From positions 1-34,628 of the forward strand of contig VGBI01000018.1 of the NCBI GenBank assembly GCA_016870595.1: 34,628 nucleotides of DNA. Direction: 5' to 3'. This DNA is from Actinomycetota bacterium. Its GTDB lineage: Bacteria; Actinomycetota; Acidimicrobiia; IMCC26256; PALSA-555. The position numbers and the translations under genes are program-made. The notes under the pieces were generated by a model, which was not told where the DNA came from, made no database searches, and saw nothing but the letters and a program-made list of their open reading frames with translations. This document shows, piece after piece, positions 26,087 through 29,170 of this stretch; within the stretch, counting starts at the first letter, position 1; the number at the start of each line of letters is the position of its first letter.

Positions 26087-27208
26087 TCAGGCGAGCGCGG
26101 TCGCCCCTGCGTCGAGCAGCTCGTACTCGGTCTCGGTGTCGACCGCGTGCTCGTAGTCGATCACGCCGATCTCGGTGAACCGCTGGCGCAGCCAGCCGTC
26201 GCCGGCGTCGAGGAGCCCGAGCTTCTTGCAGTTGGGCACGATCTTCGAGAACAGCGCCGCCTGGAACGGGTTCTCGCCGTTCTGGCGCAACCCGATGAGC
26301 ATCTTGGTGATCGCCTCGCGGTCGATGCCCATGCGCTCCCACACCGCGTGCATCATGATCCGGTCCCGCATCCGGAGCGCGGCCTCGAACGCGAACTCCT
26401 GGCGCTCGAGGATCTCGGTGGCCGAGAGACCGGCGTAGTACTCCTGCAGCGACACCACGCCGAAGGCGACGTGGCGGGCCTCGTCGGCCATCACGTAGCG
26501 CAGCAGCTGCTTGAGGAGGGGCTCCTCGGTGATGAGGTGCATGAACCCGAACGCGGCCAGGGCCAGGCCCTCGATCATGATCTGCATGCCCATGTAGGTC
26601 ATGTCCCAGCGCGAGTCTCCGACCACGTCGTCGATGAGCAGCTGCAGCGCCGGGTTGACCGGGTAGTGACCATCGAGCTTGGTGTCGAGGTAGCGGGCGA
26701 AGACCTCGACGTGGCGGGCCTCGTCCATGACCTGCGTCGCGGCGTAGTACTTGGCGTCGATCCACGGCACGGTCTCGACGATCTTGGCCGTGCACACCAG
26801 CGCGCCCTGCTCGCCGTGGAGGAACTGGCTCATGCGGAAGTTGAACGCCTCGATCGAGAGCCGGTTCCACTCGGTCTCGCCCCAGGTCCGCATCGGTGAG
26901 CCGTCGACACCGGTGAGGAGGTCACGGATGCCGACGATGGCGCCCTGCATCTCCGCAGCGACCTTCTCCACGTCGACGTCGGTGTCCCAGGGCAGGTCGT
27001 TGGCGTTCCACTGCCGTTCCTTGGCCCGCTCGTAGAGCTTGCCGAGCGCCGGCCGGGTCCGCTCGTAGTCCCAGGTGAACATGGCGTCGCCGCCCACCGG
27101 CTGGGCGTGCCAGGCGTCGCCGAAGTCGATGGCGTCGTCGGCGAGGATCGACGCGATGTCGTCGACGTCGCTGCGGCCGAGGAACGTGGTGCGGTGCTCG
27201 GTCATCAC
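26087..27208 (-). CDS. Ferritin-like/R2-like diiron protein
   Basis: FLHGEQGALVCTAKIVE, QVMDEARHVEVFARYL, MIEGLALAAFGFM, MADEARHVAFGVVSLQ; E...DEARH repeated diiron ligands; GGAGG upstream. Confidence 0.85.
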   Translation of the reverse strand: MMTEHRTTFLGRSDVDDIASILADDAIDFGDAWHAQPVGGDAMFTWDYERTRPALGKLYERAKERQWNANDLPWDTDVDVEKVAAEMQGAIVGIRDLLTGVDGSPMRTWGETEWNRLSIEAFNFRMSQFLHGEQGALVCTAKIVETVPWIDAKYYAATQVMDEARHVEVFARYLDTKLDGHYPVNPALQLLIDDVVGDSRWDMTYMGMQIMIEGLALAAFGFMHLITEEPLLKQLLRYVMADEARHVAFGVVSLQEYYAGLSATEILERQEFAFEAALRMRDRIMMHAVWERMGIDREAITKMLIGLRQNGENPFQAALFSKIVPNCKKLGLLDAGDGWLRQRFTEIGVIDYEHAVDTETEYELLDAGATALA

Positions 27209-27351
27209 GCCTCCCTGATCAGCGCACGGTGCGCAGGCTCTCGGTGATCCCTGTGATCCCTGCTGCCGGGGCGGCAGGACGAACCGATCTGCCCGATTCC
27301 GCGCGGATCTCCCCGGATCTGTCGGGCCGAACCCGGCCCGGGGGCCGGTGA

Positions 27352-27386
27352 TTCCCGGGTCCCCGGGAACTTGTTACCCGAGGGTA
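27352..27386. promoter_or_regulatory. Two dyads over the predicted promoter of the ArsC-like gene
   Basis: TTCCCGGG-TC-CCCGGGAA (27352-27369) and TACCC-GA-GGGTA (27375-27386), centres 20 bp apart; TAGCCT -10-like at 27385-27390. Confidence 0.5.
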
Positions 27387-27396
27387 GCCTCAGGTC

Positions 27397-27750
27397 ATGG
27401 CAACCGTGACCGTGTACCACAATCCCGGCTGAGGGCAGTCCCGCGGCGTGCTGGAGATCCTGCGCGACCGGGGCGTCGAGTTCGACGTCGTCGAGTACCT
27501 CAAGACCCCGCTGACCCGGGCCGACCTGGAGCGGATCCTGGCCGCCGTGCCCGATCCGCCCGCCGACCTGGTCCGCAAGGACAAGCGGTTCGGGGAGCTC
27601 GGCCTCGACGCCGACGCCTACGTGACCGATGTCGCAGTGCTCGACCTGCTCGGCGAGCACCCGGAACTCATGCAGCGCCCGGTGGTGTTTCGGGGCGACG
27701 AGGCCCGGATCTGTCGCCCCTCGGCCGTGGTCGAGGAGCTGCTCGACTGA
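27397..27750 (+). CDS. arsC: ArsC/Spx-type arsenate reductase family protein with in-frame TGA at the catalytic Cys12 codon (candidate selenoprotein)
   Basis: MATVTVYHNPG-[TGA 27430-27432]-GQSRGVLEILRDRGVEFDVVEYLKTPLTRADLERILAAVPDPPADLVRKDKRFGELGL...QRPVVFRGDEARICRPSAVVEELLD*; aligns with remembered E. coli R773 ArsC MSNITIYHNPAC12GTSR and its conserved Arg positions. Confidence 0.75.
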
Positions 27751-27792
27751 GGCGGGCCCACCCGCCCGACACTATCGCCGGGTCCGCCCGCC

Positions 27793-27857
27793 CCGATCCG
27801 ATCCGACCCGTCCGATCCGATCCGACCCGCCCGTACGACCCGCCCGTACGGCCCCGA
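27793..27857. repeat. Imperfect C-rich tandem repeats directly upstream of the ACAD start
   Basis: CCGATCCGATCCGACCCGT / CCGATCCGATCCGACCCGC (19 bp x2, 27793-27830), then CCGTACGACCCGC / CCGTACGGCCCCG. Confidence 0.8.
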
Positions 27858-27871
27858 CCCGGGAGGCACCC

Positions 27872-29170
27872 GTGGCCATCGTCACCGACCCCACCGTCAC
27901 GAGCGCCATGACCGACGCCGAGTTGCGCGCCGCGGTGCGCCGGTTCGTCGCCGAGGCCTACGACCCCGCGCTCACGCTCGCCCAGTGGTGGGAGCGCCTG
28001 GCCGACTCGGGGTGGGCCGTGCCCACCTGGCCGCGGGAGTGGCACGGCCTCGGGCTGCCCGGCGCCGCCGCGCGCACGGTGGCCGAGGAGCTGCGCGCCG
28101 CGGCGGTGCCCGGTCCGCCCGCCGGCCTCGGGCTGCTGCTCGCCGGCCCCACGATCCTCGCCCACGGGACCGACGAGCAGAAGGCCCGCTACCTCCGCCC
28201 GCTCGTCGACGGCCGCGAGGCGTGGTGCCAGCTGTTCTCCGAGCCCGGGGCCGGCTCCGACCTCGCGTCGCTGCAGACCAAGGCCCAGCGCGACGGCGAG
28301 GAGTGGATCGTCAACGGCCAGAAGGTGTGGACCTCGGGCGCCCAGTCGGCCGACTTCGGCATGCTGCTCGCCCGCACCGACCCCGAGGCGCCCAAGCACA
28401 GGGGCATCTCGTACTTCGCGTTCCCGATGGACCAGGCCGGGGTGGAGGTGCGACCGCTCAAGGAGATGACCGGGCGGTCGTTGTTCTGCGAGGTCTTCTT
28501 CACCGACGCGCGTGTCGCCGACGCCGACTGCGTCGGCGGGCACGGGGCGGGCTGGATCGTCGCCAACACCACGCTCGCCGCCGAGCGGGCCGGCCTCGGC
28601 GTGGGCGGCAGCGGCTCGGCCGGCGGCGGGTTCCCCGGGCGCAAGGCCGGGATGCTCGACCTCGTCGTCGGCGAGCTCATGGCCGGGGCCCAGGCCCAGG
28701 CCGCCCAGGCGACCCGGGCCGAGCGGGGCGGGGTGCTCATGCGCCGGGTCGCCCGCGAACTCGGCGTCGCCGACGACCCGCTCGTGCGTCAGGAGCTGGC
28801 CCAGGCCTACATCCTCGAGGAGGTCGGGCGGATGACGTCGCTGCGGGCCAAGCACCTGCGCGCTGCGGGGAGCGGGCTGCCCGGCGAGGGCAACCTGGCC
28901 AAGCTGCAGATGAGCCGGGTGCTGCGCCACGGGCGCGACCTCGGCCCCGCCATCATCGGCCCGTACGGCACGCTGCTCGGCGCCGAGACGCCGGGCGAGG
29001 GCAACTTCCAGGAGGCCACGATCTGGGCACCGGGCCCGTCGATCTACGGCGGGTCCGACGAGATCCAGAAGAACATCCTCGGCGAACGCGTCCTCGGCCT
29101 GCCCAAGGAGCCGGGACCCGACAAGAACACGCCGTTCCGCGACCTGCTCGTGGGCACCCAGGCCCACTGA
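27872..29170 (+). CDS. Acyl-CoA dehydrogenase
   Basis: GTG start preceded by GGGAGG; QLFSEPGAGSDLASLQTKAQRDGEEWIVNGQKVWTSGAQSADFGMLLARTDP...YGGSDEIQKNILGERVLGLPKEPG. Confidence 0.95.
   Translation: MAIVTDPTVTSAMTDAELRAAVRRFVAEAYDPALTLAQWWERLADSGWAVPTWPREWHGLGLPGAAARTVAEELRAAAVPGPPAGLGLLLAGPTILAHGTDEQKARYLRPLVDGREAWCQLFSEPGAGSDLASLQTKAQRDGEEWIVNGQKVWTSGAQSADFGMLLARTDPEAPKHRGISYFAFPMDQAGVEVRPLKEMTGRSLFCEVFFTDARVADADCVGGHGAGWIVANTTLAAERAGLGVGGSGSAGGGFPGRKAGMLDLVVGELMAGAQAQAAQATRAERGGVLMRRVARELGVADDPLVRQELAQAYILEEVGRMTSLRAKHLRAAGSGLPGEGNLAKLQMSRVLRHGRDLGPAIIGPYGTLLGAETPGEGNFQEATIWAPGPSIYGGSDEIQKNILGERVLGLPKEPGPDKNTPFRDLLVGTQAH

Follow-up and report, generated by a model that had tools for sequence, protein, structure and literature searches.

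Arsenate reductases of the ArsC family with selenocysteine (Sec) in place of the catalytic cysteine have been described from marine metagenomes. The 2005 report on Sargasso Sea data gives 14 Sec-ArsC sequences of the UxxS type (PMC1088965), the GOS survey gives 77 (PMC2398784), and the ArsC UxxS selenoprotein family is listed under TIGR00014 (PMC13188914). A first reading of the present DNA from its sequence only (the sequence-only reading) had mentioned ArsC-like selenoproteins from metagenomic surveys, and the first two publications show that this was correct. A COG1393 relative with Sec, the arsenate reductase-like selenoprotein NF041106, has UxxC instead of UxxS and is a separate family in PMC13188914. 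In the consensus model of the bacterial SECIS (Fig. 2 of PMC13188914), the spacing from the UGA to the apical loop is 16-37 nt.

The DNA analysed here (the window, 34,628 nt) is contig C18 of genome G000, a draft of 2.72 Mb in 165 contigs that is 93% complete. Its arsC frame (27397-27750, forward strand, 117 aa plus stop), read directly, opens with ATG at 27397, runs through 11 sense codons (MATVTVYHNPG) into a TGA at 27430-27432, continues in translation as GQSRGVLEILRDRG... and remains open to the TGA at 27748-27750. With C written for U, the product scored 45.5 bits against Pfam ArsC (cut-off 24) and matched the solved structures of R773-type ArsC (chains 1jzw and 1i9d) with an E value of 1.8e-21. 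In this alignment the TGA, which we read as selenocysteine at codon 12, lies exactly on the catalytic Cys12 of R773 ArsC, as the sequence-only reading had proposed, and Arg60, Arg94 and Arg107 are conserved. The two proteins belong to a common family with the motif YHNP-x-C/U-G-x-S-R and these three arginines. The motif of the present protein is UGQS. Like the Sargasso Sea and GOS sequences it is of the COG1393/TIGR00014 type, with a score just short of the TIGR00014 cut-off, and it has Sec for the catalytic Cys and a UxxS motif. Those sequences came from marine metagenome reads. The present gene, by contrast, belongs to a genome that carries all of the Sec machinery, and its relatives span several phyla. 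The gene is an additional member of the known Sec-ArsC family, and the family is not new. Mechanical ORF calling opened the gene at GTG 27448, as had also been foreseen from the sequence, and the truncated ORF to be expected from standard gene calling (27448-27750, forward strand) loses the active site. Downstream of the TGA, comparison with a same-genus copy gave a dN/dS of 0.25, which means that this part of the frame is under purifying selection. Another genome of the genus, assembled separately, shares the TGA at this codon, in a protein 75% identical and with the same neighbours, so chance or sequencing error is very unlikely.

Compared with R773 ArsC, the gene has Sec for Cys12 and lies outside an ars operon context, and neither of the arsenite pumps Acr3 and ArsB was found in this 93% complete genome, for which reason arsenate reduction in the cell is something that we infer only. 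Upstream lies a conserved divergent gene for an AurF-like protein (26087-27208, reverse strand; a weak Pfam match, below cut-off), and downstream an acyl-CoA dehydrogenase gene (27872-29170, forward strand), which is conserved in the order as the downstream neighbour of arsC, whether of the Sec or the Cys form. The cluster of the three genes (26087-29170 in the window) is also conserved at L022, L028, L029, L030, L036 and L039, and these neighbours do not point to arsenic. Within one genus, two genomes have a Sec arsC at this locus and a third has Cys (L039); since the Cys copy of L039 has the same neighbours, the Sec and Cys forms occupy one locus. Judging by the conserved active site, arsenate may well be the substrate. 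There is a lesser, though substantial, chance that this Sec protein has the ArsC fold but acts on something other than arsenate, as a thiol/selenol oxidoreductase: the missing Acr3 and ArsB and the conserved neighbours that are not ars genes would agree with this, and the product (C for U) scored 105.5 bits against TIGR00014, half a bit under the cut-off of 106.05. Against this, the protein retains all three arsenate-site arginines of R773 ArsC, and the genome is an incomplete one in which the exporter search covered Acr3 and ArsB. An MshC-like gene in the genome, below cut-off, suggests mycothiol as a possible reductant in place of glutathione and glutaredoxin.

Profile search showed selA (459 bits, above cut-off) and selB (281 bits, above cut-off) side by side on contig C1 of the same genome, and selD (403 bits) on contig C115; a tRNA-Sec gene (selC) with anticodon TCA was also found on C1, with 73.6 bits against a gathering score of 47. 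A genome lacking this machinery, which the sequence-only reading had named as grounds for giving up selenocysteine, is thereby excluded. The gene for a formate dehydrogenase alpha subunit (fdhA, L150, G000:C17:24199-26070, minus strand) has one in-frame TGA, in NNIDSCNRT-U-HAPSVVGL, and the stretch downstream of it contains a GGUCU loop. The SECIS of E. coli fdhF has a GGUCU loop too. This fdhA is a second selenoprotein gene of the genome, which a standard caller would split at the TGA. With the Sec machinery and this fdhA in the genome, Sec appears to be in use independently of arsC.

Protein search showed an arsC homologue in 42 of the 58 genomes of the order, and 30 loci were read among these homologues. 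TGA stood at codon 12 in seven of the 58 genomes (G000, G032 of the same genus, G028, G020, G022, G057 and G056), and all other homologues of the order that aligned across codon 12 had TGC or TGT. The relatives covering the site therefore have TGA or a Cys codon there, with no unrelated nonsense codons, and this column together with the Sec machinery supports the candidate Sec arsenate reductase first named from the sequence. The gene selA was above cut-off in 7/7 TGA genomes versus 24/35 Cys genomes of the order; since it is common there (38/58 genomes above cut-off), this co-occurrence by itself is weak evidence for reading the TGA as Sec. In addition, scanning one genome per species with the pattern NPG-TGA-GG gave 97 stretches, and 75 of the 80 listed were ArsC with TGA at codon 12. 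The records of these Sec-ArsC were labelled Acidimicrobiia, Binatia, Deltaproteobacteria and Gammaproteobacteria (Actinomycetota, Pseudomonadota, Myxococcota, Binatota). Among 18 scan genomes checked for selA, 16 were above cut-off and a 17th had a fragment. Counted from the first base of the TGA, the pattern ends after 14 nt, and so the scan did not select for the hairpin that is described below. Another UGA followed by GTCGAGTTCGAY was also sought in the window's own genome, and the sole other match was rejected, as its TGA is out of frame in what by eye resembles a cold-shock protein gene. The tree of Sec and Cys forms needs four changes; with sampling that favours Sec forms and R773 as a long branch, no direction is claimed for the swap.

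For the RNA comparison, 64 distinct Sec sequences gave a gap-free alignment of the 66 nt that begin with the TGA (T of TGA = 1). Most of the gene varies at third codon positions, but synonymous constraint was strongest 46-54 nt downstream. Among the sequences that encode V, E and F at codons +15, +16 and +17, these codons are GTC in 98%, GAG in 100% and TTC in 100%, compared with 38%, 68% and 83% for the same codons elsewhere in these genes. The z scores of synonymous constraint were -12.6 and -13.2 for codons +15 and +16, the strongest in the gene, and -6.0 for codon +17. RNAalifold found a hairpin as the sole consensus structure, in which columns 43-49 pair with columns 54-60 around an AGUU loop. 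In the window this candidate SECIS is GGCGUCG-AGUU-CGACGUC (27472-27489, forward strand; 7 bp, loop 27479-27482), with the loop 46 nt from the UGA and -9.3 kcal/mol in a simple scan. The stretch 27430-27480, in which the sequence-only reading had proposed to search for a SECIS, takes in the 5' part of this hairpin, but its 3' arm lies beyond. Its small loop with G at position 2 followed by U, its 7-bp stem and its folding energy fit the bacterial SECIS model (PMC13188914), and the spacing, which lies outside 16-37 nt, is the one feature in which it departs from that model. The Rfam search gave no SECIS match, and folding of the window sequence alone was not unusual (z -0.66).

Double changes were found at three pairs of the hairpin, 45-58 (CG to UA or GC), 46-57 (GC to AU) and 48-55 (CG to UA), and slid registers paired worse. 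The covariation score was 0.276 compared with 0.196 in shuffled alignments, and none of 500 shuffles was as high, although related sequences can beat shuffles without any structure. Because kinship alone can do this, the codon redraws and the Cys controls weigh most. At least 6 of the 7 pairs were kept in 62 of 63 Sec sequences, whereas synonymous redraws encoding the same peptide kept them in a mean of 34 and a maximum of 44 of 63 (1000 draws), and neither the VEFD peptide nor the hairpin was present in any of 21 Cys homologues. The hairpin was found even in a Sec gene with a GC3 of only 0.35, and in all seven Sec genes from the protein search, in one of them (L032/L065) with compensating base changes. 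One Sec-ArsC, L106 (CALAJQ010000026.1, 5043-5108), has a form of the hairpin without the loop G and with several pairs lost, and this is either a natural variant or a decaying gene. We consider it probable that SelB binds the far hairpin. It is also fairly likely that a distinct class of bacterial SECIS is common to the Sec-ArsC genes of four or more phyla: a short AGUU hairpin that lies 46 nt after the UGA, is reached through a folded spacer and is under constraint strong enough to have fixed the overlapping VEFD peptide. The 16-37 nt model would miss such an element.

The spacer itself contains a near stem-loop (27444-27470, forward strand in the window). Over codons +1 to +13, Sec genes fold better than their synonymous redraws (mean z -1.48) and Cys genes do not, and 50 of the 64 Sec sequences have a hairpin whose loop contains a G and whose spacing is 16-37 nt. 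The functional SECIS could be one of canonical spacing (about +18 to +37 after the UGA), with another or an ancillary role for the far hairpin, but we regard this as unlikely. Such hairpins are just as frequent in Cys genes (17/21), the simple scan gave -7.5 kcal/mol or better in this range for only 13 of the 64 Sec sequences, and the invariant loop and the covariation belong to the far hairpin. The near hairpin (+18 to +37) was rejected as a conserved SECIS, as its loop and stem register differ from sequence to sequence, its sequence is not conserved, and RNAalifold gave no consensus pair there. The folding of these codons fits a spacer of variable sequence that would reduce the distance between the UGA and the far hairpin.

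Taken with the Sec machinery of the genome, the TGA column and the Sec-specific covarying hairpin, the gene very probably codes for an ArsC with selenocysteine (thioredoxin fold, R773/glutaredoxin-type class) whose UGA is decoded with a displaced downstream hairpin, and Sec would be inserted in the cell. SelA, SelD and tRNA-Sec would provide Sec-tRNA, and SelB, bound to the mRNA hairpin with its AGUU loop 46 nt downstream, would deliver it at UGA 27430-27432, while the probably folded spacer would place the far hairpin near the UGA. In the enzyme, Arg60, Arg94 and Arg107 would hold arsenate for attack by the Sec12 selenolate, and a small thiol would resolve the resulting adduct.

Two other explanations of the TGA are highly improbable. 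TGC commonly changes to TGA by a single base, and the draft assembly that contains the window is fragmented, so a decaying pseudogene or a sequencing error with a chance nonsense mutation might be supposed, but the same TGA occurs in dozens of species of several phyla, always at codon 12, the frame after it is under purifying selection, and the RNA element that follows is confined to TGA forms. Termination at the TGA, with a shorter protein made from GTG 27448, is just as improbable, since the ORF that gene callers would report there encodes a protein without the catalytic residue, the first strand and the loop, the upstream codons MATVTVYHNPG are conserved among TGA forms, and the TGA-specific hairpin would be left unexplained.

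Decoding of this UGA as Sec would add a selenoprotein gene, truncated by standard callers, to an actinobacterial lineage with little-described selenium use. None of the papers searched linked acidimicrobial bacteria with selenocysteine and selenoproteins, yet selA is above cut-off in 38 of the 58 genomes of the order. No description of a displaced covarying hairpin was found in the texts searched; one of the earlier surveys draws an ArsC SECIS in a figure, so that an earlier description may exist. A SECIS candidate with comparative support beyond the accepted spacing could widen the rules for predicting bacterial selenoproteins. Two records of Sec-type ArsC should also be mentioned. In L110 (CAMBEL010000001.1), labelled as a Bifidobacterium breve MAG, the Sec-ArsC protein is identical to that of a genome of the order (L034, G022), and the label looks wrong. 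Near position 2457 of L126 (CALJDK010000029.1), an ArsC start with YFNPG-U-GKAR is followed soon after by a stop, and this copy is probably frameshifted or a pseudogene.
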